From positions 310,001 through 374,000 of the forward strand of contig NZ_JAIQXE010000004.1 in NCBI RefSeq assembly GCF_020076305.1: a stretch of 64,000 nt of DNA, read 5' to 3'. The number at the start of each line of letters is the position of its first letter. Position 1 is the stretch's first letter. The position numbers and the translations under genes are program-made. The notes under the pieces were generated by a model that was given only the letters and a program-made list of their open reading frames with translations, was not told the origin of the DNA and did no database searches. This DNA is from Flavihumibacter profundi (GTDB lineage: Bacteria; Bacteroidota; Bacteroidia; Chitinophagales; Chitinophagaceae). Shown here one piece after another: positions 21,281 to 60,896 of this stretch.

Positions 21281-21307
21281 AATCCTTCCTTAAACCGGAT
21301 TAACTTT

Positions 21308-24689: not shown

Positions 24690-24793
24690 TCTTACCTGGA
24701 ATTATTTGTTGTATTCGGCAGTCATCAGGTCAAATGAACATTGACAGTTATTATCAAACTGCATTTCGATGCATTCGAAAAAAATAAAGCAAA

Positions 24794-26254: not shown

Positions 26255-26299
26255 ACCACAAATTATATTGATACTAACCCAATATAATTTAATGTATAA

Positions 26300-27613: not shown

Positions 27614-27656
27614 TTATTGTTTGAATAATGATAACTCTAACTTAATTTATATTACC

Positions 27657-31119: not shown

Positions 31120-31129
31120 GGTTGTTTAT

Positions 31130-38138: not shown

Positions 38139-38672
38139 ATGATATTTATACAGCTTACCGGATTATCCGGATCAGGTAAATCGACAATTGCACATGCAGT
38201 TAAAGTATTATTACAGGAAAGGGGCCATGCTGTTGAGGTAATTGACGGTGATATCTACAGGAAAAAATTATGTCCTGACCTGGGATTTTCGAAAGAAGAC
38301 AGAAATGAAAATATACGCAGGCTTGGTTTTGTTGCTAACCGGCTTGCTGCAAATGGGGTGATTTCAATCCTCGCTGCCATTAATCCTTATGAAGAAATAC
38401 GTAAAGAACTCCTGAATTATGGCAACCATGTAAAAACAGTATGGATCAATTGTGATATTAAAACATTAATGGAACGGGATACCAAACAGCTTTACAAAAA
38501 AGCATTTTTGCCAGAAGGGCATCCTGATAAAATTTATAATCTTACCGGTATTAATGACCCGTTTGAAACGCCCATCGAACCAGACCTGGTTATTGATACG
38601 CATAAGAATAGCGAATCTGCCTCTATTGATATGCTTTTTAATTTTATTATTCAAACTGTTTATGCCTCATAA
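38139..38672 (+). CDS. cysC: APS-kinase-like P-loop kinase
   Basis: About 177 residues from the ATG at 38139 (a TTG at 38121 is less likely). It has the P-loop GLSGSGKST at residues 8-16, the substrate block VIDGDIYRKKLCPDLGFS and the following EDRNENIRRLGF, all as in adenylylsulfate kinases that make PAPS. One difference matters: the usual ISP(F/Y)R segment reads INPYEEIR, so Ser is Asn and the first Arg is Glu. The substrate could therefore be something other than APS. It is convergent with the Sfp-type gene, overlapping it by 6 bases, and no ATP sulfurylase lies nearby. Confidence 0.78.
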   Translation: MIFIQLTGLSGSGKSTIAHAVKVLLQERGHAVEVIDGDIYRKKLCPDLGFSKEDRNENIRRLGFVANRLAANGVISILAAINPYEEIRKELLNYGNHVKTVWINCDIKTLMERDTKQLYKKAFLPEGHPDKIYNLTGINDPFETPIEPDLVIDTHKNSESASIDMLFNFIIQTVYAS

Positions 38673-39416
38673 GGTATAATGCCAAAAGGAAAGGTCCCAA
38701 TCAGTTCCCTCAACTGCAATTGCTGCGGCATAACCACAACCGGGGAACAGATCCTGCCCATACCAACGCAAACTTTCAATTTTATCACTGTGCAATATAA
38801 TTGGCGACAAAACACTGCCGCTTATTAAAGAGACATCGCACTGTTCCATTGGAAATGAAATCCCCTCGCCTATGGCCTTGATAAATGCTTCTTTTCTTGT
38901 CCAGTATTGAAAGAATAGCTCGGTCCGCCTATCTATATGCATCCTAAAAAGCGAACTGATCTCACCCTGTGAGTAGAACCTCCGGGCAATCTGATCGACA
39001 GCAGCATCATCGCGTATACGCTCGATATCAATGCCAATGTTACGGTCGCGGGTAACAGCGTAAAGGGCGAATCCGTCGGAATGCGACAGGTTAAAATGGA
39101 GGGTACCGCAACCAGGGTAAGTTGCAAGTGCTGGTTTACCCTGAGAGGAATATTCAAAAACAAGTTCATTTGGTTTTTTCCCCAGATATCGGCCAAGGAT
39201 CTGCCGCAGTATCCCTCGGGCCACGATGAACCGCTTTTGATCTCTTTCGAAGCGAAAACGCTTGGCTCTTGCCAATTCGTCTTTTGAAAGAAAGCCCAAC
39301 AGGTTTTCATACTGAAGCGCGGTTAAATCAAGCCAGGCACGCCAGACATGAACCTCATTTGAAGAGATCAATTCCCCTGGAATTGCCGGACGCCATTGTA
39401 ACTCCTCATTATCCAT
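38667..39416 (-). CDS. Sfp-type 4'-phosphopantetheinyl transferase
   Basis: A 249-residue Sfp-type enzyme. The magnesium-binding block NIGIDIERIRDDAAV and the C-terminal block YWTRKEAFIKAIGEG are both present, and the spacing fits the pseudo-dimer fold. It moves phosphopantetheine from CoA to the serine of carrier domains. Being the last gene of the cluster, it very probably activates the three carrier domains encoded upstream: the two ACPs of the PKS and the PCP of the NRPS. Its presence supports the view that the cluster is self-contained. Confidence 0.93.
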   Translation of the reverse strand: MDNEELQWRPAIPGELISSNEVHVWRAWLDLTALQYENLLGFLSKDELARAKRFRFERDQKRFIVARGILRQILGRYLGKKPNELVFEYSSQGKPALATYPGCGTLHFNLSHSDGFALYAVTRDRNIGIDIERIRDDAAVDQIARRFYSQGEISSLFRMHIDRRTELFFQYWTRKEAFIKAIGEGISFPMEQCDVSLISGSVLSPIILHSDKIESLRWYGQDLFPGCGYAAAIAVEGTDWDLSFWHYTL

Positions 39417-39437
39417 ATTTTATGAAATCAATCTTCT

Positions 39438-40778
39438 TTATTTTCTACGATGAATGGTCATCTTCAGGCCATACCTTGGGCGCAGGTTAATGCGTTGCAA
39501 TAGCTCAACCGGATGATCCGGGACCATTTTTATACGCCACGATTGTGCAATGGCAGCAAGCACAAGTATCCCTTGCATCCAGGCAAATGGTTCACCTATA
39601 CATGAGCGTGGCCCCCTGCTAAACGGGAAATACTCATATTTTGCATGTAGGCCATTTGAATGTTTATCCCATGCATGGGGGTTAAATTTCTCCGGGTCCG
39701 GATGGAACCGGGCATCATGGTGTATCAAATAAGGACTCATGAGAATGATAGTGCCTCCTGGGATAATATAATTATCAATAGGAAAATCCTCCACAGCCTG
39801 GCGGGGAATAAGGTACGATGGAGGAAAGATGCGCATGGATTCCCCCAACACCATTCTTGTATACTTTAGTTGAGCAATATCATCCGCAGTTGGTAAGCGG
39901 TTATCTAATACACGATCAAGTTCTTCATGCAATTCGGATTCCGCTTCCGGATTTTGTGAAAGAAGATACCAGGTCCAGGTGAGCGCTGTTGACGTTGTAT
40001 CGAATGCCGTAAGAAAAAGTGTCATGGCTTCATCCCGCACCTGTTGATCGCTCATCCCGCCTCCATTGTTTTCATCCTGCGTACGGAGTAATAATGAGAC
40101 CAGGTCTCCATTGTCCATTTTGTTGCCCCGGCGTTCATCAACCATCCTATTGATTGTATTATCAAGTCGTGCTTTAGCCTTCAGGAATCTGCGTGTGTCC
40201 GGGATAGGCAGTTTGAGCAACCATTCCGAAAAAGGTAAAGCGATTCTTCCAGCCAGGCTCGATGCTGCTTCCAGCGCCTGGTCAATTTCCGGTGCTTCTT
40301 TTTCTATATCTGCATTGAATAAGGCCTTTCCTGCGATTGCTATGCTCATCTTCGTCATTTCTTCCTTTATCTCAACCTCCATACCATCTTCCCACCCATT
40401 CATCAGTCGCGTAGCATATTCCGTTACTGCAGGTGCATACGATTCGATCATATTGCGACGAAACGCAGGCTGAATGATACGGGAGTGGCGCTTATGGAAT
40501 TCACCCTCACTGGTCAGAAGACCCTCACCTAATAGTTCCTTTGCCATTTCCATAGGCCGGCCCTTTACAAAATTTTGATGTTTTACCGAAAGTACTTCTT
40601 TGATAAAATCCGGGTGATTCAAAAGGACAATTCTAAGCGGGCCAATTTTGAAATGGACGATATCACCGTATTCTTTCGCAATGTTTCTCAGGAAACCAAT
40701 ACTGTCCTTTCGGAAACTAAATAAATGACCTAAAAGAAATTTAGGTTTTGGTCCTGGCGGGAGTTTATATCTATTCAT
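39438..40778 (-). CDS. Cytochrome P450
   Basis: A 446-residue soluble P450. The haem-binding loop FPFSRGPRSCIGEPFAW places the ligand at Cys393; the I-helix reads TAFDTTSTALTW with the acid-alcohol pair; the K-helix has ESMR. It looks closer to the CYP102/CYP4-like fatty-acid type than to the small actinobacterial tailoring type. It probably hydroxylates or epoxidises the lipid part of the product. It lies 21 bases after the fused thiolase gene. Redox partners are not encoded nearby. Confidence 0.93.
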   Translation of the reverse strand: MNRYKLPPGPKPKFLLGHLFSFRKDSIGFLRNIAKEYGDIVHFKIGPLRIVLLNHPDFIKEVLSVKHQNFVKGRPMEMAKELLGEGLLTSEGEFHKRHSRIIQPAFRRNMIESYAPAVTEYATRLMNGWEDGMEVEIKEEMTKMSIAIAGKALFNADIEKEAPEIDQALEAASSLAGRIALPFSEWLLKLPIPDTRRFLKAKARLDNTINRMVDERRGNKMDNGDLVSLLLRTQDENNGGGMSDQQVRDEAMTLFLTAFDTTSTALTWTWYLLSQNPEAESELHEELDRVLDNRLPTADDIAQLKYTRMVLGESMRIFPPSYLIPRQAVEDFPIDNYIIPGGTIILMSPYLIHHDARFHPDPEKFNPHAWDKHSNGLHAKYEYFPFSRGPRSCIGEPFAWMQGILVLAAIAQSWRIKMVPDHPVELLQRINLRPRYGLKMTIHRRK

Positions 40779-40799
40779 ACTATTAATACATCTATGGAA

Positions 40800-42818
40800 T
40801 TAAAAATGATAAATAGCGCAGCCAACCTGTATACCAGAACCAACAGCAATCATTAAACCAGTATCCCCGGGTTTGACAAGCTCCTGTTCATATGCATTCT
40901 CCAACGCATAGGAAATAGAAGAAGTAAAAAGGTCGGGGCCTTCCCCAGTGACGTCAACAAACCTTTCCCTGGGAATATTTAACGATTCGCTCAATCGAGT
41001 AATGAACCCAGATGAGATTTGGGGTGGAAAAATCTTATCTATATTGCTGAAATCAAGTCCTTCCATCTGCAACAACTCCTGCACAGCGGGTAAAATGCAG
41101 GCGATATACAATGCTTCGAGATTGGCGTCTTTCTCAACATGAAGATAGGGTTTGCTATCCCCGGGCGTATAATATGTTGTATATGCATTTAGCGATTCAG
41201 GATCATTTCTAAATAGAAAATGGGAAAAGCCTTTGTCACCCGATGGTTCCGAAACCAAGATGAGTGCCGATGCCGTTTCACCAACCCCCACCCGTTCATC
41301 AGTAAACGTATCAGTATTGTTTTCAATTTCCGCTGCAACTATCATGGCTGTCTTGCAGTTCTCGGCTGCAATCATTTGTTGCGCTACATAACAGGCATTC
41401 AGGAAACCGATGGAACCATTAAATATATCAAAGGCAAGCGTTTTATTATCGTCCTGATCTGTGGTAGTTGCATTCATGTCCAACTCACCCGCCAGAAATG
41501 CGGCATATGCAGGTTCCAGAAGATATTCGCTGCGATAAACGCCTGTATAAATTAACAGACCGATTTCCTTGCAAGCGCAGGAGGATTTCCTGAGGCAATT
41601 TGTTGCAGCGCGGGTAAGCAATTCCAGTGAATGCTTTTTCCCGGTCTTCTCTGCCGGAACCGTCCCAACACTTTCAATTCGAATTTTAGGAACAATAGGA
41701 TTTGTAGCAGGGCTCAAACGGTTTATAGGTGATGCTTTTTGCTTAGGGTATGGCTCTGATCCCATTTGGCGCAAGCGGTCAGGCAAATCATCAAAAACGT
41801 ACAGCGCTGTGCCAATGGTTAGACCGGAGGCGGTAATACTAAACACTATTTTATCCCCTGAATGAATATTGTTTTGGCGTATATTATCTGTTAAGGCAAT
41901 GATATGCGCCGTCGAAGCTGTATTGCCGCGTTGTTCCAGGTTGTTGATAGTGTTGCCATCGTGGCAAATTCTGTTTTTCAGTAAACGGTTGATCTCGCCG
42001 CATGCACTATTCAGGGTCATGGCCGAGGTCTGGTGCATGATCAAATGCTGAAAACTTTCGGGCGGCCATACGGCCTTTTGCAGCACACTCATTGCATGTT
42101 TCGCACCGGATTTGATGCCTACGTCCGTCAGCTTTACCGAATCTGTGTACATAATCATTCCATCTTGTTCCGATGTTTTGGCGATACAGTATTGACTGTA
42201 ACGACCGAAAGTTTGAAGGTCAAATTCCTGAAAACCGGTATGGGGATCATGTGCAGCTTCCAGGATCAGCGCGGCTCCTGCATCTCCAAGGGTCAAACAG
42301 GCAAGCCGCGTATCCATAAAACTTTCGATCTCATTTTGTGCAGATTTAGTTAAGTGGGTAATGTATTCGCCGCTGACCACCATACCGCGGCGGATGGCCC
42401 CCGTTTTAATTAAAGCGTTAACGATATATATGCCGGTAAACATGCCGGCGCAGGCATTGGTTATATCAAAGGTGAGGGCATGGGTAAAACCGAAGTACTG
42501 CCTTAGCTTGATTGAAGTATTTGGTTCAAAAGAAATCAAACCCGGGCCATCATATCTAGAGATGTTACAGCAAATCATGATATCAATATCCGTTGGACTA
42601 TATTTTGATTTTGCCAGACAGTCGGCAATTGCATTCTTTGCTAAATCAATGGAAAATTCATCCTGTCCCGCCATTCGCCTGGTTTTAATGCCGGTAATCT
42701 TTTCCAACGGAAAATGAAACTTATTTTTACAGCCCATCAGTACTTCGCCGGTTGAAAATGATTGTGGTGGAAGATATATCCCGATGCTCTCTATGATGGC
42801 GTTCTGTTTGTGATTCAT
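40800..42818 (-). CDS. Tandem KASIII/thiolase fusion, OleA-like pseudo-heterodimer
   Basis: A 672-residue protein made of two KASIII/thiolase-fold halves (about 1-345 and 375-672). The first has a full Cys-His-Asn set: C123 in DITNACAGMF, H262 in IMHQTSAMTLN and N299 in RGNTAST. The second aligns well but has S469 for Cys (DIFNGSIGF), P599 for His and Pro/Asp near 628 for Asn, so it cannot hold an acyl group. Both keep a Glu-Pro motif about 25-35 residues before that point: E98 in ISFEPNTS and E435 in LLEPAYAAF. In OleA the equivalent Glu reaches into the partner's pocket and acts as base. The protein thus looks like a catalytic and a helper OleA subunit joined in one chain. It follows the NRPS, so it may release the chain by head-to-head condensation. 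The substrate is inference. Confidence 0.85.
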   Translation of the reverse strand: MNHKQNAIIESIGIYLPPQSFSTGEVLMGCKNKFHFPLEKITGIKTRRMAGQDEFSIDLAKNAIADCLAKSKYSPTDIDIMICCNISRYDGPGLISFEPNTSIKLRQYFGFTHALTFDITNACAGMFTGIYIVNALIKTGAIRRGMVVSGEYITHLTKSAQNEIESFMDTRLACLTLGDAGAALILEAAHDPHTGFQEFDLQTFGRYSQYCIAKTSEQDGMIMYTDSVKLTDVGIKSGAKHAMSVLQKAVWPPESFQHLIMHQTSAMTLNSACGEINRLLKNRICHDGNTINNLEQRGNTASTAHIIALTDNIRQNNIHSGDKIVFSITASGLTIGTALYVFDDLPDRLRQMGSEPYPKQKASPINRLSPATNPIVPKIRIESVGTVPAEKTGKKHSLELLTRAATNCLRKSSCACKEIGLLIYTGVYRSEYLLEPAYAAFLAGELDMNATTTDQDDNKTLAFDIFNGSIGFLNACYVAQQMIAAENCKTAMIVAAEIENNTDTFTDERVGVGETASALILVSEPSGDKGFSHFLFRNDPESLNAYTTYYTPGDSKPYLHVEKDANLEALYIACILPAVQELLQMEGLDFSNIDKIFPPQISSGFITRLSESLNIPRERFVDVTGEGPDLFTSSISYALENAYEQELVKPGDTGLMIAVGSGIQVGCAIYHF

Positions 42819-42864
42819 ATTTCCCTGAGTTTGACTTTAATTAATAAAGAGTCATTTACGAAAA

Positions 42865-45800
42865 TCATTGCATCCAGGTTCCTTTGAATTGTCCGGCCAA
42901 CCCGGCGATGGTCTGATACTCAAAAATGGTCTCAGCACTGAGCCGAAACCCGGCTATGTTTGCATTGGCCACGATCTGAAGACTCTGAATCGAAGCCCCG
43001 CCGAGTTCAAAAAAATTATCATGGATCCCAACTTGTTCCACACCAAGCACGTCTTGCCAAATGCCGGCCAAAATTCGCTCCACCTCATTTCGTGGCGCAA
43101 CATATCCTGCGAGTGGTCGTACATCCTCAGGCACCGGCAAAGACTTGCGGTCAATTTTGCCATTGGGTGTCAGAGGTAAGCCATTAAGTCGTATGAAGGC
43201 AGCAGGTGTCATATAGCCAGGCAATTTTTTTTTGACGAAGTCCTGCAATTCGCCAACATCAGGCGATTTGTCATCCTTGGGGACAAAGTATGCCACCAAT
43301 CGTGTGTCGCCGGAGATTTCTTTCCTGGTAATCACTATAGCTTCATGCACAGAAGGATGTTGCATCAACACGGATGCAATCTCACCCAATTCAATACGGT
43401 GGCCATGGATCTTCACCTGATCATCTATCCGTCCAAGAATTTCGATTAAATAATCCGGCAAATAACGGGCCCGATCACCGGTTTTATACAATTGCGCGCC
43501 AGGTTTGGAACTGAAACAATCAGGTATAAATTTCTCATTGGTCAATTGAATTTGATTAAGATAGCCTCGCGCCAAACCTTCACCGCCGATATACAACTCT
43601 CCAACTACTCCAATGGGTGCGGGTTGCAGATAACGATCCAATATATAAAGTTGTGTGTTCCCAATAGGTTGCCCAATAGTAATTGGTGCATCCCCTTTCT
43701 GTATTTGGGTTATCGAAGACCATACAGTCGTCTCGGTGGGGCCATACATATTCCACAAGCTACCAACACAATCCAAAAGCTGATCCGCTAATTTTCTTGT
43801 TAATACGTCGCCGCCGCAAAGCGCTTTCAAGTCCGGTTTGCCTGCCCAACCCGACTCGATCAGTATTTGCCAGGCAGCAGGTGTTGCCTGCATCATATTA
43901 ACATTATAATCATCGATCGCCTGGCCCATCTTGTAAGGGTTAGTGATCATCTCTTTACTTGCCACTACTACAGTTGCTCCAACTATTAAAGGAAGGAAGA
44001 GTTCCAGTGCCGCAATATCAAATGAGATGGAGGTCACTGATAACAACAGGTCATCCTTATTGATTCCTGGCCGCATGCGCATCGACCAAAGGAAGTTTAC
44101 CAGTGCGGCATGATGCACCATGACCCCTTTTGGCTGTCCAGTCGAACCCGAGGTATAAATGATATAGGCAAGATTTTCTGGGGTGACATTGGTTTGGGGA
44201 TTTGGGGAAGCACTTTCTATTGAAAGTTTATCATCATTCAGATTGACAACATGTACTTTGTGTTTTCCCGGTAGCCCGGGATCAACATTTGCCAGCAACA
44301 CCAGCACATTGGCATCGTTCAGAATGAATTGCACTCGCTCTGGTGGAAAGGAAGTATGAATCGGCACATAAGTTCCGCCTGCTTTGAGTACAGCCAGCAG
44401 CGCTTCAACTATTCCTAAGGATCTTTCCATGAATATGCCAACCCGAATGTCAGGGCCAACACCCAATCCCACCAGATGATTAGCCAAAACGTTTGCCCGT
44501 TGGTTAAGCTCGCGATAGGTTAACGAATTATGGTCGTGAATAACCGCAATGGCGTCTGGTGTCTGCTCTACCTGTTCTTCAAAAAGCTGATGTAAACATT
44601 TTTCGCGGGGAAAATCTAGTTGAGTCTGGTTCAGCCCGTAAACAAGGCGGTGTAGTTCATTCTTGTCCACTAGTTGCAATCTGGAGATAGGGCAATCAGG
44701 TTGGGCTATAACTTCCTCCAGGAGCATTTGAAAAGAGCGGAACATTCTGGCAACCGTAGCCGGTGTAAACAGATCGCGATTATATTCAACTGTACCACGG
44801 CATTTTCCTTCAGACTTAGACATCATCAATGTCAGATCAAATTGGGATACACCGCGATCGATTTCCAGGGGAGTTATGGCAAGGCCTGGAATTTCCAATT
44901 TTGGCATAGGAGAATTTTGCAGGTTAAAGACCACCTGGAAAATTGGTGTACGGCTAAGATCACGCTTCGGCTTCAACTCTTCGACGAGTTTCTCAAAAGG
45001 CAGGTCCTGGTGGTTGTAAGCCTCCAATGAAACGTCACGAACACGCCTGAGCAATTCACGAAAACCAGGATCACCGGAAAGGTTTGTGCGCAAAGCGAGT
45101 GTATTGATAAAAACACCGATCAATTGCTCAAGCTCCGGCATGTTACGATTAGCGATAGGTGTACCTACTATGATGTCATCCTGTCCACTATAACGGTGGA
45201 GCATAATATTAAACGCTGTCAGCAAGGTCATGAACAAAGTCGCATCTTCCTGCCGGCTAAGTTTTTCAAGGTCTTCTGTTAAATCCGCGGAGAGCTCGAA
45301 ACGATATGTTCCGCCCGTGAAAGTTTGCCTTGCGCATCGTTGTTGATCTGTTGGTAATTCCAGAACAGGAAGCTCTCCTCCCAACTTTTTTTTCCAATAG
45401 AGCATCGATGGTTGCAGCGTTTCTATTCTTTTATCATCAGTTTGCCAATGCGCGAAGTCGGCATACTGGATAGGAAGTTCAGGTAGTTGAAGGGGCTTAC
45501 CAATAGTGTTGTTTTGATAGAACTTCATCAGCTCACGCAGGAACACTCCCAAAGACCAACCATCCGCAATGGTATGATGGACAACAACGAGTAACAATTT
45601 TTTCTCATTGCTTAATAAGAAAAGTTTGAGGCGTATCATCGGAGATTTTGCCAGGTTGAATGGCTGTAACACTTCTTTTTCCGCAAGCCGCCGTGCTTCG
45701 GCCAATTGTTCGATATCGTTGAATGTCTGCAAATCGACAATTGGAACCGTGATCTTAATATCAGCCAAAACTTCGGGAGTTGGTAGTCCCAGCCCAAATG

Positions 45801-46077
45801 AAAAACCTGTCCTAAGGGCATCATGCCTTGCAATGATCTGATTGGCACTTTGTTCCAATCCTGCAAGATCAAGTTTGCCATTGAGTTCAAGAAAGATCGA
45901 AAGATTATTAACCGCGGTGCCTGGCTCGAGCAATTCAAGAAACAACTGGCGCTGTTGAGGAAAAGAAAGTGGGCTCGGAATACCTAAAGGACGCCGGGGA
46001 ATGCATGGCGCATCATCGGCTGCCTGCCCCTGCAGCCATTTTTCCAATAATGCTCGTTTTGCCGGTGAGAGATCCAT
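42865..46077 (-). CDS. NRPS module C-A-PCP, predicted glycine
   Basis: About 1070 residues from the ATG at 46077 (MDLSPAKRALLEKWL), 10 bases after the PKS stop; the GTG at 46128 would only add an unlikely leader. The C domain (about 30-460) has HHTIADGWS, the A domain (about 495-900) has IIYTSGSTGQPKG, MYGPTETTVW and YKTGDRARYL, and the PCP (about 990-1065) has FFELGGASIQSL with Ser1029. The A-domain specificity residues read by hand are D-I-L-Q-L-G-M-V-W, which is the glycine type. There is no thioesterase, reductase or terminal C domain, so release must come from another protein. The C domain would join the acyl chain made by the PKS to glycine. Confidence 0.93.
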   Translation of the reverse strand: MDLSPAKRALLEKWLQGQAADDAPCIPRRPLGIPSPLSFPQQRQLFLELLEPGTAVNNLSIFLELNGKLDLAGLEQSANQIIARHDALRTGFSFGLGLPTPEVLADIKITVPIVDLQTFNDIEQLAEARRLAEKEVLQPFNLAKSPMIRLKLFLLSNEKKLLLVVVHHTIADGWSLGVFLRELMKFYQNNTIGKPLQLPELPIQYADFAHWQTDDKRIETLQPSMLYWKKKLGGELPVLELPTDQQRCARQTFTGGTYRFELSADLTEDLEKLSRQEDATLFMTLLTAFNIMLHRYSGQDDIIVGTPIANRNMPELEQLIGVFINTLALRTNLSGDPGFRELLRRVRDVSLEAYNHQDLPFEKLVEELKPKRDLSRTPIFQVVFNLQNSPMPKLEIPGLAITPLEIDRGVSQFDLTLMMSKSEGKCRGTVEYNRDLFTPATVARMFRSFQMLLEEVIAQPDCPISRLQLVDKNELHRLVYGLNQTQLDFPREKCLHQLFEEQVEQTPDAIAVIHDHNSLTYRELNQRANVLANHLVGLGVGPDIRVGIFMERSLGIVEALLAVLKAGGTYVPIHTSFPPERVQFILNDANVLVLLANVDPGLPGKHKVHVVNLNDDKLSIESASPNPQTNVTPENLAYIIYTSGSTGQPKGVMVHHAALVNFLWSMRMRPGINKDDLLLSVTSISFDIAALELFLPLIVGATVVVASKEMITNPYKMGQAIDDYNVNMMQATPAAWQILIESGWAGKPDLKALCGGDVLTRKLADQLLDCVGSLWNMYGPTETTVWSSITQIQKGDAPITIGQPIGNTQLYILDRYLQPAPIGVVGELYIGGEGLARGYLNQIQLTNEKFIPDCFSSKPGAQLYKTGDRARYLPDYLIEILGRIDDQVKIHGHRIELGEIASVLMQHPSVHEAIVITRKEISGDTRLVAYFVPKDDKSPDVGELQDFVKKKLPGYMTPAAFIRLNGLPLTPNGKIDRKSLPVPEDVRPLAGYVAPRNEVERILAGIWQDVLGVEQVGIHDNFFELGGASIQSLQIVANANIAGFRLSAETIFEYQTIAGLAGQFKGTWMQ

Positions 46078-46087
46078 CTTCTTTAAA

Positions 46088-51778: not shown

Positions 51779-51793
51779 TATATCGTCAGTTAA

Positions 51794-51836
51794 CAGGAAG
51801 AAAAAAGTTACTTAACAAATTACCTTTTTCTTCCTG
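51794..51836. repeat. Perfect 12-bp inverted repeat between LLM and PKS genes
   Basis: CAGGAAGAAAAA at 51794-51805 is exactly mirrored by TTTTTCTTCCTG at 51825-51836, with a 19-base loop. It lies in the 94-base gap before the PKS TTG start. In the transcript it would form a stem whose end is 15 bases from that start. There is no U-run after it, so it is not a standard intrinsic terminator. It might set the PKS level by hiding the weak start, by attenuation or by mRNA processing. The repeat is certain; the role is inference. Confidence 0.75.
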
Positions 51837-51872
51837 ATCTCAATAGATCCTGGTTTCTTTTTATTTTGTATG

Positions 51873-53180: not shown

Positions 53181-54901
53181 GTTAATATGATTTCGTTCAA
53201 GGTTCCAGCTAAGTAGTTTGTTTTACAGAGATAGTGTTTTATTTTACCACTGGCAGTTTTTGGTATGCCACCAGGTCTGGTAAGTCTGATATCATCGACA
53301 TGAAGATCATGATGCACCGCGACAGCTTTGCGGATGGCCATTATGATTTCTTCTGCTTTCACATCAGGATTCTGCTCAATCTCAGCAATGATGATGATTC
53401 GCTCACCTTCAGAATTATTAATCGAAAAAGCAGCAGATCCTGCCTGCCGGATAGCTGGATGGGAACTTTCTACCGTTCTTTCTATGTCATTGGGATAGTG
53501 GTTATTGCCATCAGAAATAATGAGGTCCTTGAGACGTCCGGTAATAAATAACTCCCCTTCATGCAAAAACCCAAGATCCCCGGTACGCAGGAAAGGCCCT
53601 TCCCCGCTGTTAGACAACCGCGCACCAAAAGTCAACTCAGTTTCGGAAGGCTTATTCCAATAACCATGCGCGACACTGGGTCCACTTACCCAGATTTCTC
53701 CGACCTGATCCGCAGGGCATAGTGTCAGCGTTCCTGTATCAACAATCCTTATCTTCTGATCGGACCCGTTTTGCCCACAACTTACCAGTGTCCGGGTATC
53801 CTCCCTCCTGGTCGGAGAAATTATTACCTGATTTTGTTCAAGCCCCGAACTCATCAGATTTTGGATCACTGGTGACCTGCCTTTTGGTCCTCCCATAACC
53901 ATTAATGTTGCCTCAGCCAAGCCGTAACAAGGCAAAAAGGCCTCGCGGCGAAAACCACAAGGGGCAAAGTAATCTGCAAACTGATCCAATGATTTGTGAT
54001 AAACCTGTTCAGCACCATTAAATGCAACTTCCCAACAGCTGAGATCAAGTAGTTCTCTTTGTTCGGGTTTGATCTTCTTCATACATAAATCGTATGCAAA
54101 ATTAGGTCCCCCACTTGTTGTGGCACGGAAACGGGAGATTGCTTGTAGCCAGCGATATGGACGTTGCAAAAACATCATATGCGGGATCAATGTGGCCGGG
54201 TATCCCGTGTAGAGCGGTTGCAAAATTCCCCCCACGAGCCCCATATCATGATAGGGTGGCAACCAAATGACAGCGTGACTTTCACTTGATTGTCCAAAAT
54301 ACTTCTCAATAAGGCCCAGGTTATGGAGCAGATTGCTGTGACTTACCATTACACCTTTTGGTGTGGTCGTTGAACCGGATGTGTATTGGAGAAATGCAAT
54401 ATCGTTCCCTTCAATTTCAGGCTTTTGCCATTTCTCAGCCCAGTTATCTATTTCATTGTTGTCCGTTACCAGCAGCTTCATGTTACCAAACCCGGCCTTA
54501 ACCGCTTTTTGAGAATTTATCACATCAAAGAGCGCTGAATTTAATAGAACTACAGCCGGTGCGGCATCGTCAACTATACCGAGAATTATTGGAAGCATTC
54601 TCTCCATACGGGCAGGATGAGGGGGATAAGCCGGAATAGCGATGATTTTAGCATAGAGACAACCAAAATAAGCAGCAACAAAATCCAGCCCTGGTGCAAA
54701 TAGCAAAAGCGCCCGATCTCCAGCCCTGGTGGAAGACTGTAGCAAAGCTCCGATTGAACGAGCACGTCGATCCAGATCTTCATAAGTCAATACAACTTCA
54801 TCATATTCTCCATCTGCCAGGTATCGATAGGCCAGCCTGTTTGGCTGATTATTTGCGCGCAAACGCAAGATATCAACCAGTGAAGTTGGCAGATGAGTCA
54901 T
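53177..54901 (-). CDS. Fatty acyl-AMP ligase (FAAL)
   Basis: About 574 residues from the ATG at 54901 (MTHLPTSLVDILRLRANNQP); the frame also opens at a GTG at 54925, but the ATG fits the family start. Motifs are FLQYTSGSTTTPKGVMVSH, WLPPYHDMGLVGGILQPLY, GGPNFAYDLC and LPCYGLAEATLMVMGG, all diagnostic of FAAL rather than CoA ligase, along with the FAAL-type insertion after it. FAALs activate a free fatty acid as acyl-AMP and pass it to an ACP, not to CoA. The natural acceptor is the N-terminal ACP of the PKS. It is separated from the upstream membrane-protein gene by about 190 AT-rich bases, where an internal promoter could lie. Confidence 0.94.
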   Translation of the reverse strand: MTHLPTSLVDILRLRANNQPNRLAYRYLADGEYDEVVLTYEDLDRRARSIGALLQSSTRAGDRALLLFAPGLDFVAAYFGCLYAKIIAIPAYPPHPARMERMLPIILGIVDDAAPAVVLLNSALFDVINSQKAVKAGFGNMKLLVTDNNEIDNWAEKWQKPEIEGNDIAFLQYTSGSTTTPKGVMVSHSNLLHNLGLIEKYFGQSSESHAVIWLPPYHDMGLVGGILQPLYTGYPATLIPHMMFLQRPYRWLQAISRFRATTSGGPNFAYDLCMKKIKPEQRELLDLSCWEVAFNGAEQVYHKSLDQFADYFAPCGFRREAFLPCYGLAEATLMVMGGPKGRSPVIQNLMSSGLEQNQVIISPTRREDTRTLVSCGQNGSDQKIRIVDTGTLTLCPADQVGEIWVSGPSVAHGYWNKPSETELTFGARLSNSGEGPFLRTGDLGFLHEGELFITGRLKDLIISDGNNHYPNDIERTVESSHPAIRQAGSAAFSINNSEGERIIIIAEIEQNPDVKAEEIIMAIRKAVAVHHDLHVDDIRLTRPGGIPKTASGKIKHYLCKTNYLAGTLNEIILT

Positions 54902-55095
54902 ATAAAGGCATTTTAATTGAATCACTTAATAATGAAAAAATAAAACACACCAGCTACACACATAATCGTAAGTGGTGATTCACTTGAGCAGTATACCACG
55001 GAAGCCCACTAATAAATGGATTGCAGTTCTTTATTTAATATAATAAATATATTTTGATTTTGCTTTCCGGGAAAGATATAGAAGGCAAAAAAAAC

Positions 55096-55752
55096 TTAAG
55101 TCAGTGAAGATTTATTAACGGATTTCTTGTTGGAATTGATAACCAAAATAATCAGCAAGCTCAAAATAGCTGCAAAAAAACACCAAACAGAAATTAAATA
55201 GTCCGTGAAAAATATATAAGTAAGGATCAACGAAGCCATCATAGCTCCTGCCAGCAACTTCGTATGGCGTAAAGTGGAAAGAAACGGAGTAACAGCTATG
55301 GTTACAAAATTCAGGGGGCGCATTATATTAAGATATGGGAAATCGCGGTAATAGCGGATATGATGGTGCTCCGCAACGGCTGAAATATCATGCGTAATGA
55401 GGCAATAAAACATATATAAAGACGAAGCCCCTCCTAATAATAAAAAGTAGAACAAAATTTTTTTCCGGCGTTTATCTGTTTCCATCAACCACATAATAAG
55501 TGGAACCCAAATTGGCCAGATGGGTTGAGAAATGAATGAGTAGCCATAAAGTGCCGGCTTATAAAAGGAAGCGAAATCCGGATATTTTAAGGATAGCCAC
55601 AAAAAGCCTTCAGCGATTTGATGAAAACTAAAAACAATGGGTGTACAAGCAAAAGCCAACATCCCTGGAGATTCCGTACGTTTGATAGCATATAAACCCG
55701 GACCTAAAAGGCCAGCTCCCACCGCAAAACTTGCACCTGCTGAGAAACACAT
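55096..55752 (-). CDS. DUF6629-like membrane protein
   Basis: A membrane protein of about 218 residues with six or seven hydrophobic segments. I chose the ATG at 55752 since members of this group begin with MCFSA-type sequence, here MCFSAGASFAVGAGLLGP; the frame extends to an ATG at 55827 (25 more residues). FSFHQIAEGFLWLSL and AEHHHIRYYRDFPYLN are other distinctive blocks, the latter with three adjacent histidines. The function of the family is unknown. It lies between oleD and the FAAL gene, in the same direction, so a role in handling or exporting a lipid product is possible but unproved. Confidence 0.75.
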   Translation of the reverse strand: MCFSAGASFAVGAGLLGPGLYAIKRTESPGMLAFACTPIVFSFHQIAEGFLWLSLKYPDFASFYKPALYGYSFISQPIWPIWVPLIMWLMETDKRRKKILFYFLLLGGASSLYMFYCLITHDISAVAEHHHIRYYRDFPYLNIMRPLNFVTIAVTPFLSTLRHTKLLAGAMMASLILTYIFFTDYLISVWCFFAAILSLLIILVINSNKKSVNKSSLT

Positions 55753-55893
55753 AAGTAGCGTTTTAATTAACCCAGCTTGATAATTCTTCAGGTAATCATC
55801 GGCATCATTTCTTTGAATAAGAATCATCGAAGCAAAAAATAATTTTTACCTCTCTTTGAAGCTACGATTTTTATACATCCCGATCCAAAAGAT

Positions 55894-56895
55894 TCATCGA
55901 TTAGAAGCCCTTGAAACCCACGCCCGCAAGCGCTCCATTCCTTGTTCTAAAGAAACCACCACTTCGTACCCGAAATCCTGCCTTGCGGCAGAAATATCGT
56001 ACCAATGTGAAGTGGAAAGTTGTTGGGCGAGAAAAAGTGTGATTGCCGGTTCAGCAGAAATCCCGAAAATCCGGTAGGCAGTTTCTAAAAACCGGCCTGC
56101 AAAGCGGGCGATTCTTGGGGACAAGTGCTTGGTAACCGGAGGGATTCCGCCGGAGGCCAGTAATTGATTGATCAGTTCTGCAATGGGTATAGGGGCGCCC
56201 TGGGAGATGAAATAGGTTTTCCCTTCTACCGGTGCCGGGTCCCGGAGCAGTTGGTCAAATGCCTGCAGATGGGCTTTGGCTGCATTGTCGATATAAATGC
56301 AGTCCACCAGGTTCTGGGAGCTGCCTAGAATTCGGAGTTTGCCTGCTTGAGACTTTTTAAATAAGCGGGGAAGAAAATGGCGGTCTTCCGGTCCCCAAAT
56401 CAGGTGCGGGCGCAGGGAAACAGTTTTCAGGAAAGGGTCATTAGCGGCTATGACTAGTTTTTCCGCCATAGCCTTGGTTTTGGGATACCATGCGTCATAT
56501 TTTGGGGGATAGGGAAGGCTTTCGTTATGACCTTCCGAATCTTTGCCGTCATAAACCACGCTGGGCGAACTGGTGAAGATGAGGTTGCGGATAGCCAATT
56601 CGCGGCAGGCCTTCAGTACGTTTTCCGTACCTGTGACATTGGCCAGGTAAAAATCTTTGTATTTGCCCCAGATACCCGTTTTGGCTGCAACATGAAAAAC
56701 CGCTTCGCAGCCCATCATTGCCTGTTTCAACACAGCATATTCCGAGATATGACCCTGGAAATGCGTCACCCCCATTTGATCCAGCTCTGGGTAATTTCCC
56801 CGGGAAAAGGTTACCACTTCATGCCCCTTGGCGCACAATTGACGTACAATTGCGAGACCCAAAAATCCGCCGCCGCCGGTTACAAACAGTTTCAT
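55894..56895 (-). CDS. oleD: OleD-like NADPH-dependent beta-keto acid reductase
   Basis: A 333-residue extended SDR of the 3beta-HSD type. The nucleotide site is KLFVTGGGGFLGLAIVRQL, followed by FHVAAKTGIWGKYKDFY, FTSSPSVVYDGKD and the catalytic YPKTKAMAEKL. These features and its place directly after oleC match OleD, which reduces the 2-alkyl-3-keto acid made by OleA to the 3-hydroxy acid. It overlaps oleC by 4 bases (ATGA). The substrate could differ here if the condensing partner is an assembly-line intermediate. Confidence 0.9.
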   Translation of the reverse strand: MKLFVTGGGGFLGLAIVRQLCAKGHEVVTFSRGNYPELDQMGVTHFQGHISEYAVLKQAMMGCEAVFHVAAKTGIWGKYKDFYLANVTGTENVLKACRELAIRNLIFTSSPSVVYDGKDSEGHNESLPYPPKYDAWYPKTKAMAEKLVIAANDPFLKTVSLRPHLIWGPEDRHFLPRLFKKSQAGKLRILGSSQNLVDCIYIDNAAKAHLQAFDQLLRDPAPVEGKTYFISQGAPIPIAELINQLLASGGIPPVTKHLSPRIARFAGRFLETAYRIFGISAEPAITLFLAQQLSTSHWYDISAARQDFGYEVVVSLEQGMERLRAWVSRASNR

Positions 56896-58538
56896 GCCAA
56901 TTCATTTTTTGCCCAAACCGCCAGTTTTTCACGGATGATCTTGGCGTTATGCCGAAAGTCCACCGGAAAACCAGGATGAAAGAGCAGGGTTTTGATAGCT
57001 CCGGTCAGGGGATGCTCAGCAGCCCAGGCCAACAGTTCCGCCTTGAGTTTTGCCTGGTCGATCGGGTTACCACTTTTTTCGGGTTCCACACATAATACCG
57101 CTTTGCCATTTACCCCCACCAATGCCGTTCGGAAAACATCCGGATGCTTATTAAAAATATGCTCACACTGAGTGGAATATAGTTCCTGTTCTCCCGCTTT
57201 CACCCGATGGGCCTTTCGCCCGCAAAACCAGAGGTTTCCTTCATCATCAAAATAGCCAAGGTCGCCCATGCGGTGTCGAACCTGGTCGCCATCCCGTATC
57301 TTAGCCAGTTTTGTGGCAGTTTCCCGGTTAAAATAGCTAGTGGTGACATTACACCCCTTTACCACTATCTCCCCGATCTCACCAGGAGCCACTTTGAGGT
57401 CTTCGGACCAATTGGGAATCTCTTCGTCGCTGATGCGGATGATGGCGATTTCCATGCCCTTCACCGCTTTGCCAATACAAACCCCGAATCCGTTTCCGGT
57501 TTTCTCCTGCGTTTCCTGAAGAATCTGGTGACTCCCCACCTTGGCCACCGGCATGGATTCCGTAGCTCCGTAAGGCGTAAAAATCTGGATTCCAGGTGCC
57601 AGCATAGAAGAAAAACGCACCAAAGCTTTAGTGGAAGCAGGCGCCCCGGCAGAAATCACCCTTTTGAGACTTGGGAGTTTGACCCCATTCGCCTCCCCAA
57701 ATCGCCCCACCTTATCAATAAGAGCCGGCGAACCAAACATATTGGTAATGCCAAACTGTTTTATCGGGCCGATGATGTTTTGGGGATTGACTGAAGCAGG
57801 TTTTGTGGGGTCCATGTCGGGAATAATGCTGCTCATGCCCAATGCCGGATTAAACAGGGCAAAAGGCGGGAAAGTGGGCATATCGATCTCTCCCGGCGAA
57901 AATTCAAAGGAATCACGGATCATCTCCAGTTGTGCCCTGAAATTGCCATGAGAATATACAACCCCCTTAGGCAGGCCGGTAGAGCCACTGGTGAAAATGA
58001 TAGCCGCCAAATCGTGCGGCCCTGCATCAAAAAACGGTCCCGGACCTTCAGACCGGTCAAAATTCCGGATATTCTGCATTTTTTTTCCGCCCCAGAACAG
58101 CCGTGGGCCGAGGGTGACGGTTTTACGAATCGTTTTTTTGCCCCAACCAAGGAGTACCCGTGCCGCATGGGCTTTGCTGATTCCGATAAACCCCATCGGT
58201 TCGGTTTCCGTAATGCACTCCTTCATGTTTTTAATACCTATTCCCGGATCAATAAATACAGGAACGACGCCGGTTTGAAGCATAGAAAAACCAAGGATAA
58301 AAAAGTCGAAGCCCGGAGGCACCATCACCACCACCCGGTCACCTCGCTTAAATCCGGCAGCAAGCAGCCCCCGCCCTACGCAGGCGGTTTCAAAGGCGAG
58401 TTCTTTGAAAGTGATTTTTTGATAGCGGGTGATGCCGTTTTTGTCAAGGCTGTTCTTTTCCGGAAATGCAATGGCAAGTGCATCTGGCTGGGAAGCAGCC
58501 TTTTCAATGAGGGCAGAAGCAATGTTAAATGGTTTCAT
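56892..58538 (-). CDS. oleC: OleC-like beta-lactone synthetase
   Basis: A 548-residue ANL-superfamily enzyme. The ATP loop IIFTSGSTGLPKGVVYSHGNF, the block FTPYGATESMPVAKVG and the late block LWFCGRKAHRVKAG are those of OleC, which adenylates a 3-hydroxy acid and closes it to a beta-lactone. It is unlike the FAAL in the same cluster and lacks the FAAL insertion. It sits between oleB and oleD with 4-base overlaps at both ends, the arrangement known from long-chain olefin clusters. If OleB is slow or specific, the lactone itself could accumulate. Confidence 0.92.
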   Translation of the reverse strand: MKPFNIASALIEKAASQPDALAIAFPEKNSLDKNGITRYQKITFKELAFETACVGRGLLAAGFKRGDRVVVMVPPGFDFFILGFSMLQTGVVPVFIDPGIGIKNMKECITETEPMGFIGISKAHAARVLLGWGKKTIRKTVTLGPRLFWGGKKMQNIRNFDRSEGPGPFFDAGPHDLAAIIFTSGSTGLPKGVVYSHGNFRAQLEMIRDSFEFSPGEIDMPTFPPFALFNPALGMSSIIPDMDPTKPASVNPQNIIGPIKQFGITNMFGSPALIDKVGRFGEANGVKLPSLKRVISAGAPASTKALVRFSSMLAPGIQIFTPYGATESMPVAKVGSHQILQETQEKTGNGFGVCIGKAVKGMEIAIIRISDEEIPNWSEDLKVAPGEIGEIVVKGCNVTTSYFNRETATKLAKIRDGDQVRHRMGDLGYFDDEGNLWFCGRKAHRVKAGEQELYSTQCEHIFNKHPDVFRTALVGVNGKAVLCVEPEKSGNPIDQAKLKAELLAWAAEHPLTGAIKTLLFHPGFPVDFRHNAKIIREKLAVWAKNELA

Positions 58539-59419
58539 GGGTTTCTTAAAAAAAAGTCTAGCACCAGTTTGCCGACAGCTTCCTGCTGGTCTTCCAAAAT
58601 ATAATGGCCGGAGTCTTCGAATCTGTGAACCCTGGCCTCAGGCAGGTATTGCATCCAGGCCTCAAGGAAATGCCGGTCAAAAACATAGTCTTTCATGCCC
58701 CAGGCAATAAGGGTCGGGGTATTGCGGAATTGGCCCAGGCACTGCTGCATTTCAGTAACAATCCTGTATCCCGGATCACCTGGTTTAAGGGGAATGTCCT
58801 GCACAAAGCGAAGCGTGGCAATCCTGTTTTTCCATGAGTTGTAAGGAGCAGTCAGGCCATTTCTGACGGCTTTCGACAGCCTGATCCTTTTTACTCCTTC
58901 AATTGTAGCGATCCCGGCGAAGGCATTAAATGCCCGCACCAGGAATGCGCCTACCCATGTGCGAAACAACAACAGGCCAAACGGAAAACTTTTGCCCTGG
59001 GGCAGATGAAAAGCCGTAGTATTCAGGATCACGATCTTTTTGATCGAATACGGATGCCGGTGTGCATATGCCATTCCAATTATACCCCCCCAATCATGTA
59101 CAACAAGGTGGATGTTTTTGGTAATGGCTTTCTTTTCGAGAAATGTCTCAAGGTCGTTCAACCGTTGTTCAAGAGTATAGTTATAGGCTGCATCATCCGG
59201 TTTATCCGAATAGCCACAGCCAATATGGTCCGGAGCCAGGCAATGAAAATGCGGGGAGAGTTTTCGGATAAGTTCCCGGTAATAAAAAGACCAGGTTGGA
59301 TTGCCATGGAGCATGACAACAGGGTCACCTTTTCCTTCCTCCACATAGTGGTATTGGTGTCCACTGATGGTTTCAAAGTGGCTCTTAAAAGGATATAGTT
59401 CCGGGCTTACTCCTTTCAT
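58535..59419 (-). CDS. oleB: OleB-like beta-lactone decarboxylase (alpha/beta hydrolase)
   Basis: A 294-residue alpha/beta hydrolase close in look to haloalkane dehalogenases. The halide-type oxyanion block HGNPTWSFYYREL, nucleophile Asp109 in VVHDWGG, Asp244 in AWGMKDYVFD and His272 in DSGHYILED give a complete triad. In its place next to oleC and oleD it is better read as OleB, which opens the beta-lactone and drops CO2 to leave a cis alkene. It is the second gene of the operon and starts 16 bases after the diiron gene. A dehalogenase role is unlikely from context. Confidence 0.9.
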   Translation of the reverse strand: MKGVSPELYPFKSHFETISGHQYHYVEEGKGDPVVMLHGNPTWSFYYRELIRKLSPHFHCLAPDHIGCGYSDKPDDAAYNYTLEQRLNDLETFLEKKAITKNIHLVVHDWGGIIGMAYAHRHPYSIKKIVILNTTAFHLPQGKSFPFGLLLFRTWVGAFLVRAFNAFAGIATIEGVKRIRLSKAVRNGLTAPYNSWKNRIATLRFVQDIPLKPGDPGYRIVTEMQQCLGQFRNTPTLIAWGMKDYVFDRHFLEAWMQYLPEARVHRFEDSGHYILEDQQEAVGKLVLDFFLRNP

Positions 59420-59435
59420 ATTAGTTAGACTCTTT

Positions 59436-60896
59436 TCATTTACGACCTATGCCTATGATTTGAAGAAGTTCTTCCGGCTCAACATACACACTTATTCTGG
59501 CTAGCTGTTGACTCAGGCGAACGGTGATATGACGATACAGAATTTCGGATTCTACTCCAAACGCCCGGAACGCCTGAATCAGGTGGTGATCTTCAGTTTT
59601 ATCCCCATAGACAGCCTTCATCATCACCTTTAAAGCCACATTGTTTCGAACCCGTTCCAATCTATGACCTTTCCTGAAAAGTTCATTGTAAATTTCTACA
59701 CACAAATCCATATGTCTTTTTTCATCCTGCTCCGATATAGTTTTACAAATACTGCAGAACAAACTATCTGGCATGTATTCTTTTTTACCAAAGAACTCAA
59801 GGTAAGCAGCTCCTATTGCTTCAACAAGCACAGCCAGGAACATACCTGTGCCGGGCATAAACCGTGCAAGCCACATGTAGCGACCAGCACCTTTTATCAG
59901 GATAGCGGAAATAAATTCCCTGGCCTCTAACTTTTCTACCAAAAACCGCCGAAAGGTAGCCGAATGCTTTGCTTCATCCCTTATGAATGTTGTCATTGCT
60001 TCCTGGATCTCACGATGGCGTTTGTAATGGATGATGCCCATAGTTAAAGGAGCGATCGCACTTTGCTCCACTACCAGCGCGTGGTTGGCAATGTCTTTGA
60101 GTCCACGAAGTTGGCGTTTCAAAATCAGATCCTTCAACCGGGACAAATCCCTTTGATCGTCGGGTAAATTCTTAGACGCTAAAGTCCGGTGAACCAGTTC
60201 ATGTGTTTCTTCCAGGTCAAACAATACCTCGGGCTCAATTGAATTAAGCTCCTTACTGATCTTCGTTCTCAGTTTCTCCGATTCGTTTTTGTTGTGTGCA
60301 TCAAATTGTTTGAGATCACTTTGAACCTGATTTATGTTATTGGTCAGCCGGGATAACTGAAGGGACTGCGCCTCTCTCTCTGCATCAGTTTCCAAACGTT
60401 TAACCATTGCTCCTTCCTTAAAGAATCCCAGCCGTTGTTGTTCCTGTAAGTCCAAAAACTCACTATTAAGAATTTCAAACTGATCTTTCAACTTTGAAAC
60501 AGATAATTGGAGATGCTTCAGTGGTGATTGAATCTCTAAAGCCTTATGAATTGTTGTTCTATCATAGGGAACACATTCCCCGATATCTTTCAGGGCATCT
60601 TCTTCCAGGGGAAGTTGCTCTTGCCGGATCTGAACTATTTTGCGTGCTAAAGTCTCTTCAACCATAGGTAAAACCATAAAGAGGATTCTTGAAAAATCCT
60701 TCGGGTCAAGGTTTTCCAAATGTTCTTTCAGGTTATCCCGAACGCTCTGTTGCCAATCAAATTTGGTATCCTTGCTCCAATATTTTTCCTCACTATCCTT
60801 TGTATATTGTGTGAAGTCGCGTGTAGGAGTGATGTAGTAATCCGGTCGTCCTTTGATAACTTTTTTTTGGGGAGATATATTTCGATAATCTTTCAC
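59436..60896 (-). CDS. Ferritin-like diiron protein with long coiled coil
   Basis: A 486-residue protein whose C-terminal 220 residues form a ferritin-like bundle with a full set of diiron ligands: Glu277 (VVEQSA), Glu308/His311 (DEAKH), Glu359 (LVEAIG) and Glu392/His395 (DEKRH). The first 120 residues are helical and unknown; residues about 125-225 look like a coiled coil rich in Leu, Glu, Gln and Lys. It is the first gene of the cluster, starting with GTG, since the frame is closed just upstream. It probably activates O2 to oxidise or desaturate the product or a precursor, as in AurF-type or desaturase-type enzymes. Which reaction is unknown. Confidence 0.78.
   Translation of the reverse strand: MKDYRNISPQKKVIKGRPDYYITPTRDFTQYTKDSEEKYWSKDTKFDWQQSVRDNLKEHLENLDPKDFSRILFMVLPMVEETLARKIVQIRQEQLPLEEDALKDIGECVPYDRTTIHKALEIQSPLKHLQLSVSKLKDQFEILNSEFLDLQEQQRLGFFKEGAMVKRLETDAEREAQSLQLSRLTNNINQVQSDLKQFDAHNKNESEKLRTKISKELNSIEPEVLFDLEETHELVHRTLASKNLPDDQRDLSRLKDLILKRQLRGLKDIANHALVVEQSAIAPLTMGIIHYKRHREIQEAMTTFIRDEAKHSATFRRFLVEKLEAREFISAILIKGAGRYMWLARFMPGTGMFLAVLVEAIGAAYLEFFGKKEYMPDSLFCSICKTISEQDEKRHMDLCVEIYNELFRKGHRLERVRNNVALKVMMKAVYGDKTEDHHLIQAFRAFGVESEILYRHITVRLSQQLARISVYVEPEELLQIIGIGRK

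Follow-up and report, generated by a model that had tools for sequence, protein, structure and literature searches.

How would a lipid assembly line that ends at a carrier domain release its product, and what are OleABCD-like enzymes doing next to it? These questions are raised by a locus of Flavihumibacter profundi in a 64-kb window, that is, the whole stretch of DNA analysed here (positions 310001-374000 of contig NZ_JAIQXE010000004.1), in a genome of 4.87 Mb. The initial annotation placed there, at 38667-60896, twelve same-strand genes combining a fatty acyl-AMP ligase (FAAL), a polyketide synthase (PKS) module, a nonribosomal peptide synthetase (NRPS) module and OleABCD, and all the coordinates match, with the genes on the minus strand. 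The answer proposed here centres on a fused OleA-OleA' protein (tandem OleA), which would take an aminoacyl chain off the peptidyl carrier protein (PCP) domain by a non-decarboxylative Claisen condensation. We see an even chance that this is a new way of ending an assembly line, present in at least Bacteroidota, Mycobacteriaceae, Planctomycetota and Acidobacteriota, joined by oleBCD and a sulfotransferase in Bacteroidota and (with PKS only) in a Gemmatimonadetes, and leading to sulfated allylic amine or enamide lipids. The twelve genes are listed in the order of transcription, followed by the sulfotransferase gene.

59436-60896, minus strand, putative ferritin-like di-iron oxygenase of 486 residues (E/ExxH ligand pattern only)
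58535-59419, minus strand, OleB-like beta-lactone decarboxylase of the haloalkane dehalogenase fold (PF00561)
56892-58538, minus strand, OleC-like beta-lactone synthetase (PRK09274, 708 bits, cut-off 478; OleC models, 636 and 624 bits, cut-offs 850 and 900)
55894-56895, minus strand, OleD-like 2-alkyl-3-oxoalkanoate reductase (NF042423, 414.5 bits; NF042422, 400.7 bits; cut-offs 580)
55096-55827, minus strand, DUF6629 protein, an optional part (PF20334)
53177-54925, minus strand, FAAL (PF00501, PF23024; PRK05850, 451 bits, cut-off 775)
51873-53180, minus strand, luciferase-like flavin monooxygenase (LLM; PF00296, 164 bits)
46088-51778, minus strand, type I PKS module: acyl carrier protein (ACP), ketosynthase (KS), acyltransferase (AT), dehydratase (DH), ketoreductase (KR), ACP (with the motifs of KS, AT, DH and KR; start codon taken to be TTG)
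42865-46128, minus strand, NRPS module: condensation (C), adenylation (A), PCP (PF00668, PF00501, PF13193, PF00550)
40800-42818, minus strand, tandem OleA-OleA', a fused pseudo-heterodimer of the ketoacyl-ACP synthase III (KAS-III) type (catalytic residues, AlphaFold2 model)
39438-40778, minus strand, cytochrome P450, probable hydroxylase (PF00067, 303 bits; motif FSRGPRSCIG)
38667-39416, minus strand, 4'-phosphopantetheinyl transferase (PPT) of the Sfp/HetI type (PF01648, PF22624; HetI model, 218 bits, cut-off 370)
62436-63530, minus strand, sulfotransferase (PF13469), beyond the 60896 edge of the cluster as first noted

The families first assigned are borne out by Pfam and NCBIfam profile matches, with the Ole calls safer as OleB-, OleC- and OleD-like, and the PKS, NRPS, OleD, OleC and P450 motifs are the usual ones of those families. 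The 4-base overlaps are exact (OleB/OleC, 58535-58538; OleC/OleD, 56892-56895; FAAL/LLM, 53177-53180). FAAL, ACP, KS-AT and C-A-PCP occur in the order of a FAAL-PKS-NRPS line, in which the FAAL could load a fatty starter onto the first ACP and the PPT could activate the carrier domains. Among the window and its 12 Bacteroidota relatives, the A-domain code was read for the window alone, as DILQCGMVW, and it predicts glycine by comparison with the usual glycine code. The glycine NRPS module first described stands as a module, with glycine as its predicted substrate.

No thioesterase or reductase domain appeared in the Pfam scans of the twelve genes. The NRPS stops just past the PCP, 47 residues from the start of its motif ELGGAS, and the sole alpha/beta hydrolase among the twelve is the OleB-like protein, with an Asp nucleophile. 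A head-to-head Claisen condensation by tandem OleA is the probable release step, because 33 of 52 tandem OleAs form the C-terminal portion of an NRPS. The 52 are the window protein and 51 proteins from 80 loci, the best 80 of the 135 tandem-OleA relatives given by a scan of 84,980 species genomes. The fusions belong to Mycobacteriaceae (25), Planctomycetota (6), Acidobacteriota (1) and Bacteroidota (1, genome G045, locus L091). The Pfam order is C-A-PCP-KSIII in L063 and L073 and also in L058, where the PCP falls below the threshold used and FAAL-ACP-KS-AT-KR-ACP stands upstream of the fusion.

The first half of the window protein has C123, H262, N299 and E98, and the second half has Glu435-Pro436 and no Cys. 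Across the 52 proteins, the Cys, His and Asn of the first half and the Glu of the Glu-Pro motif of the second (E435) are always present, and the second nucleophile position never holds Cys (Ser in 13, Ala in 31, Gly in 6, Pro and Asp in one each). The protein has accordingly the Cys-His-Asn set and the Glu-Pro base of OleA and is not a homodimer with two active sites. In Xanthomonas campestris OleA, E117 of one subunit, with Pro next to it, is the base in the active site of the partner subunit, according to the section of PMC7064751 on that enzyme. A dead half that keeps its Glu alone fits the need of a fused heterodimer, and tandem OleA could be such a condensing enzyme, with the Glu of the second half acting in trans on the first as in X. 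campestris. This assignment is based on the alignment, on the E117-Pro statement in that section of PMC7064751 and on a confident AlphaFold2 model of two domains (predicted local distance difference test, pLDDT, 90.1; predicted template modelling score, pTM, 0.93). The Glu-Pro signature also suggests that two acyl thioesters are joined without decarboxylation.

The 26 two-gene loci show a similar residue pattern: all 26 partner proteins retain the Glu, and none (0/26) carries Cys where the nucleophile would be. In the OleA tree, which omits 17 loci (15 mycobacterial near-duplicates, L103 and L104) and L102, with no partner gene, a branch supported 100/100 separates the tandem from the two-gene forms, and the 13 Bacteroidota tandem rows form one group (100/100).

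Concerning the relation to oleBCD, no OleB or OleC was seen in the flanks of the 33 NRPS-OleA fusions, some of these flanks being short. Tandem OleA thus follows the assembly line more than oleBCD, and it looks like a terminal domain of the line to which oleBCD would have been added as a tailoring block. Elsewhere in the genome, OleC occurs in G077, G078, G079, G080 and G085, which are five out of seven genomes of Planctomycetota and Acidobacteriota surveyed for it, and among seven Mycobacteriaceae genomes one has an OleC relative (36%) and two have distant OleB relatives (30 and 33%). The planctomycete G078 carries a separate OleABCD-like set (L162) on a contig other than that of its NRPS-OleA fusion; the two can coexist apart in one genome. 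The A codes of the fused lines are DILQCGM(V/I)W in three Planctomycetota (L063, L073 and L088), as in the window, DPWHCGLID in most Mycobacteriaceae, and DAAHCGEIT, DAYTTGAVC, DASTCAAIC and others in the rest, their translation into amino acids being taken here as an assumption.

Some of these loci deserve mention in their own right. In a Planctomycetaceae metagenome-assembled genome (MAG), L073 encodes at 4460-12013 a single protein of 2517 residues with the order FAAL-ACP-C-A-PCP-OleA-OleA', a minimal complete line. Loci L056-L087, from Mycolicibacter and relatives, contain FAAL-PKS and NRPS-OleA-OleA' megasynthases, in most cases with an OleD-like reductase (26-28% identity) after them, and in the Acidobacteriota locus L076 a sulfotransferase match (32%) lies at 13.0 kb, about 1 kb downstream of the fusion. 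About 20 kb of contig G081:C65 (28,840 bases; L079, L160), from a Gemmatimonadetes MAG, hold tandem OleA together with two PKS genes, the genes of a short-chain dehydrogenase and a sulfotransferase, and the block OleD-OleC-OleB. The examined part showed no NRPS, and the contig begins about 0.8 kb before tandem OleA, so an upstream NRPS is possible. This combination may have arisen separately, because its OleC falls outside the Bacteroidota OleC group, with moderate support for its placement.

Within Bacteroidota the line and oleBCD usually go together. The comparison covers 13 genomes, namely the window genome, G010, G012 and G059-G067 (tandem OleA of at least 52% identity) and G203, with presence set at 42% identity. 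FAAL, LLM (72-88% identity in 12 relatives), PKS, NRPS, tandem OleA, P450 and sulfotransferase are present in 13/13, OleB and OleC in 12/13, OleD in 11/13 (in G063 the contig stops within OleC), the di-iron gene in 11/13 (10/12 relatives) and DUF6629 in 7/13 (6/12 relatives). The PPT reaches at least 42% identity in 7/12 relatives, weaker copies (37-42%) occur in G010, G066 and G203, and none was seen in the DNA examined for G064 and G065. The sulfotransferase counts as a part of the cluster, because all 12 relatives have it; on the same ground a chance neighbour was considered and rejected. The Cyclobacteriaceae YHN15 locus L051, with a line and tandem OleA on a flank too short to show whether oleBCD follows, lies outside this table, as do G045/L091 (43%, NRPS-fused, on a 3.3-kb contig), L077 (44%) and L093 (35%).

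The background rates show that the combination is not due to chance in the sampled genomes. Tandem OleA (at least 43% identity) was found in four of 59 close genomes, the own genome included, and OleC (E 1e-100) in three, all of which carry tandem OleA; the fourth is G045, where it is fused to the NRPS. Among 395 sampled Bacteroidota genomes (own included, at most three candidates scored in each), tandem OleA and OleC each occur in one other, which is the same genome, G203. There they lie 17 kb apart, on a chromosome that holds the whole set except DUF6629.

OleB and OleC accompany the line in 11 of the 12 relatives, and in nine of these 11 oleBCD shares a contig with tandem OleA (eight) or, in G066, with the NRPS. 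The G063 assembly is too broken up for a verdict, and the Saprospiraceae MAG G060 has oleBCD on another contig than the line, whose own 51-kb contig shows none between 5.4 and 47 kb (contig G060:C71 was examined up to 20000 of 31709). The whole-genome OleB and OleC counts cover 30 of 31 genomes. Regarding the initial proposal of one pathway, it is well supported in Bacteroidota by oleBC in 11/12 relatives; elsewhere the thiolase follows the line. The refuting pattern named at first, a tandem thiolase that keeps to one of the two partners, is thus partly seen outside this group, where the thiolase is fused to the line and does not go with oleBCD.

At least four gene orders exist among the 13 genomes. 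All genes are colinear in the window; the FAAL-to-NRPS block is inverted in G010, G012 and G062; oleBCD lies on the tandem OleA side and the sulfotransferase past the NRPS in G059 and G065; and oleBCD lies past the NRPS and sulfotransferase in G064, G067, G203 and, with the di-iron gene moved, G066. The window OleC is 88 and 88% identical to those of Ferruginibacter paludis and MAG KLAP56 versus 73 and 68% for congeners. Because the window proteins are nearer to those two genomes than to their own genus, transfer of the set from genus to genus, mostly as a whole, is probable.

Regarding the OleB/C/D-like block, the OleD-like protein has the motifs GGGGFLG and Y137-PKT-K141, and the OleB-like protein conserves D109, D244, H272, N40 and W110 in 12/12 aligned sequences. 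D109, H272 and D244 make up the Asp-His-Asp catalytic triad of the haloalkane dehalogenase fold. A search of the Protein Data Bank (PDB) with OleC gave no match at E 1e-50. In the OleC tree the 12 Bacteroidota set members form one group (100/100). An ordinary hydrocarbon pathway with an OleA of its own was considered for oleBCD and rejected: the next best OleA-like protein of the window genome is only 24% identical, and no other was evident in the genome search with tandem OleA, which leaves oleBCD with no other evident partner.

The 486-residue protein showed no Pfam or NCBIfam match and only chance-level PDB matches. It carries E277, E308xxH311, E359 and E392xxH395, invariant across the four aligned rows, a pattern presumably typical of ferritin-like di-iron enzymes, in which such a ligand set sits on a four-helix bundle. 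Its gene occurs in 9/25 genomes checked, all with the Bacteroidota-type cluster.

Taking these data together, we think it fairly likely that the genes serve one pathway, in which the line is followed by release through tandem OleA, alkene formation by the OleD-, OleC- and OleB-like proteins, oxidation and sulfation. Among the observations in its favour, the distance matrix of tandem OleA correlates with those of OleB, OleC, OleD, FAAL, P450, sulfotransferase and the di-iron protein (r 0.77-0.89) and of the LLM (r 0.70), with 11-13 genomes each and at most 2/5000 permutations as high; NRPS and PKS are not among the proteins compared. The steps, the direction of the Claisen reaction, the second acyl partner and the product are all proposed from sequence. 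The FAAL would activate a fatty acid and load it onto the first ACP of the PKS, which would add one unit and reduce and dehydrate it to a 2-enoyl chain. The NRPS would couple this chain to glycine and so carry an N-acyl-glycyl thioester on its PCP. Tandem OleA would move the N-acyl-glycyl chain onto C123 and condense it, without decarboxylation, with another acyl thioester at the alpha-carbon of the latter, with Glu435 from the catalytically dead half as the base. This head-to-head Claisen reaction would itself be the release and would give a 4-amido-3-oxo-2-alkyl acid. The OleD-like protein could then reduce it, the OleC-like protein close the beta-lactone and the OleB-like protein decarboxylate this, so that the resulting cis-alkene would be an N-(alk-2-enyl) fatty amide. 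The LLM, the P450 and the di-iron-like protein could oxidise the lipid and the sulfotransferase could sulfate a hydroxyl, and hence the cluster points to a predicted sulfated lipid of an unknown kind.

Several observations weigh against this interpretation. Regarding the OleA label, Foldseek with the tandem OleA model puts FabH chains at the top and lists X. campestris OleA from rank 36 onwards, phmmer against the PDB also places FabH above OleA, and in two additional PDB searches aimed at X. campestris OleA the alignments shown were to FabH, so in both sequence and fold the tandem protein stands closer to FabH than to OleA. The label is suggested instead by the Glu-Pro signature, the relatives beside oleBCD and the genome scan. 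Many two-gene partners carry a Cys one residue past the expected nucleophile position. Six tandem OleAs (L057, L077, L079, L083, L092 and L093) show no NRPS fusion and do not belong to clusters of the Bacteroidota type, and no assembly line was found in the examined, partly short, flanks of L057 and L083 (Lentisphaeria) and of L077 and L093 (Saprospiraceae). OleC and OleD score below the NCBIfam equivalog cut-offs listed above, and the OleB-like protein lies below the haloalkane dehalogenase cut-offs and has no OleB model among its NCBIfam matches. The complete OleABCD set announced at first holds as a set of Ole-like proteins, the suffix "-like" being the safer name because of those scores. 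The OleC and OleA trees conflict in places, for example for Algoriphagus G062, and the model of the 486-residue protein, from a four-row alignment, has a pLDDT of 56, below 50 in the putative ligand part. The distance-matrix correlations are uncorrected for species descent. Finally, in a whole-genome search Pontibacter diazotrophicus (G061; L049, L154) has no OleC, close OleB or di-iron gene.

This species keeps FAAL-LLM-PKS-NRPS, tandem OleA, P450, PPT and sulfotransferase, which makes it a natural test of the line alone. Downstream of tandem OleA in L077 and L093 there are GH3-family adenylating enzymes.

The same chemistry could also run in the opposite direction, with the fatty acyl chain on C123 attacked by the alpha-carbon of N-acyl-glycyl-PCP. 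It would give a 2-acylamido-3-oxo acid, an alpha-amido-beta-lactone and, via OleB, a (Z)-enamide, with C1 of glycine lost as CO2. The glycine-like code of the window, L063, L073 and L088 would suit it, since glycine has two free alpha hydrogens. We consider it improbable: DPWHCGLID, DAAHCGEIT, DAYTTGAVC and DASTCAAIC would demand a quaternary carbon, and a fusion that sets OleA next to the PCP fits transfer to the Cys. We therefore favour the aminoacyl chain as the part that would be loaded on the Cys, because the A codes vary and a non-glycine alpha-carbon as nucleophile would give quaternary centres.

Just as doubtful is a pathway whose end product is a hydroxy acid or a lipstatin-like beta-lactone, with OleB serving as a hydrolase or for self-protection. 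That oleACD sets make beta-lactones, as stated in the beta-lactone passages of PMC7064751, and that OleB belongs to a broad hydrolase family and falls under the family cut-offs shown, are in line with it. Nevertheless, the Asp-His-Asp residues with N40 and W110 are kept in 12/12, the gene adjoins OleC in those loci, and the known beta-lactone producers named in those same passages lack oleB. Two separate neighbouring pathways, a lipopeptide line and a tandem OleA condensing ordinary acyl-CoAs for OleBCD, could explain why sub-blocks move as units, why the blocks are on different contigs in the MAG G060 and why Lentisphaeria tandem OleAs show no line nearby. We hold this to be very unlikely in view of the NRPS-OleA fusion in 33/52 and of the joint presence and absence across genomes, where no search was made for a line without tandem OleA.

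The OleABCD long-chain olefin pathway is known from Xanthomonas, Shewanella and Micrococcus. The locus resembles it in its tight operon of OleD-, OleC- and OleB-like genes with catalytic motifs and in its Glu-Pro thiolase, and differs in that its OleA consists of two fused halves, one of them dead, and sits beside an NRPS (fused to it in other phyla) and in the added P450, LLM, di-iron-like and sulfotransferase genes. The lipstatin operon joins Ole-like enzymes with an NRPS, and LstA/LstB and NltA/NltB represent heterodimeric KAS-III enzymes. Tandem OleA shares with them two unequal OleA-type halves, the comparison with LstA/LstB being by description only; unlike LstA/LstB, it is one polypeptide, it occurs with OleB, and it would be tied to carrier proteins rather than free acyl-CoAs. 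From FAAL-PKS-NRPS lipopeptide lines, which share FAAL loading, one PKS and one NRPS module and an Sfp-type PPT, the locus differs in having no thioesterase or reductase domain and a putative tandem OleA release; from beta-lactone (oleACD) clusters it differs in its OleB-like gene (12/13 genomes). In the passage of PMC7064751 devoted to it, LstA/LstB is a heterodimer joining two acyl-CoAs.

The initial annotation went too far in stating that OleABCD has no tie to an assembly line. The relevant section of PMC6463001, on Shewanella and Photobacterium, reports that OleA is supplied with acyl chains by the PKS-like Pfa synthase, whose ACPs are the most likely point of contact, before OleBCD act. 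That section describes two like chains being joined, and no amino acid, NRPS or tandem OleA. MxnB of myxopyronin biosynthesis also has a KAS-III fold and condenses two carrier-bound chains, but it is stand-alone and makes an alpha-pyrone from beta-keto chains, with no OleBCD in the account given in that part of PMC5724707. The claim that no system with this mix has been described agrees with our searches: none was found in the open-licence literature, which falls short of most subscription papers. As far as these searches show, the fused heterodimer, the NRPS fusion and the union with oleBCD and a sulfotransferase are new.

If the proposal holds, a carbon-carbon bond-forming release would be added to the known ways in which assembly lines free their product, and an amino acid could be turned into an allylic amide via a beta-lactone. 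Surveys may have passed over these gene sets, since tandem OleA has about 670 residues and the main OleA survey, as its methods are given in PMC7064751, cut 251 high-confidence sequences to those of at most 500 residues, leaving 234. Unknown lipids would be predicted in Flavihumibacter stibioxidans YS-17, F. petaseus NBRC 106054, Ferruginibacter paludis CECT 8366 and Lewinella cohaerens DSM 23179.

Among the minor observations, PDB searches with the P450, the sulfotransferase and the LLM gave nothing decisive, and a plasmid search with tandem OleA returned 13 records of 27.6-35.6% identity, the cluster being on no plasmid among them. In F. petaseus (L042), PKS and NRPS are in one frame. Between the sulfotransferase and di-iron-like genes, orf257 (61174-61947) has 54.8% G+C versus about 33% in its flanks, no Pfam match and no counterpart in the 12/12 related clusters; it looks like a recent insertion and was not counted as a part of the cluster. 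At 14414-33583 the window contains GH97, GH92, alpha-amylase/CBM48 and carbohydrate phosphorylase genes, which form an ordinary polysaccharide region beside the cluster.

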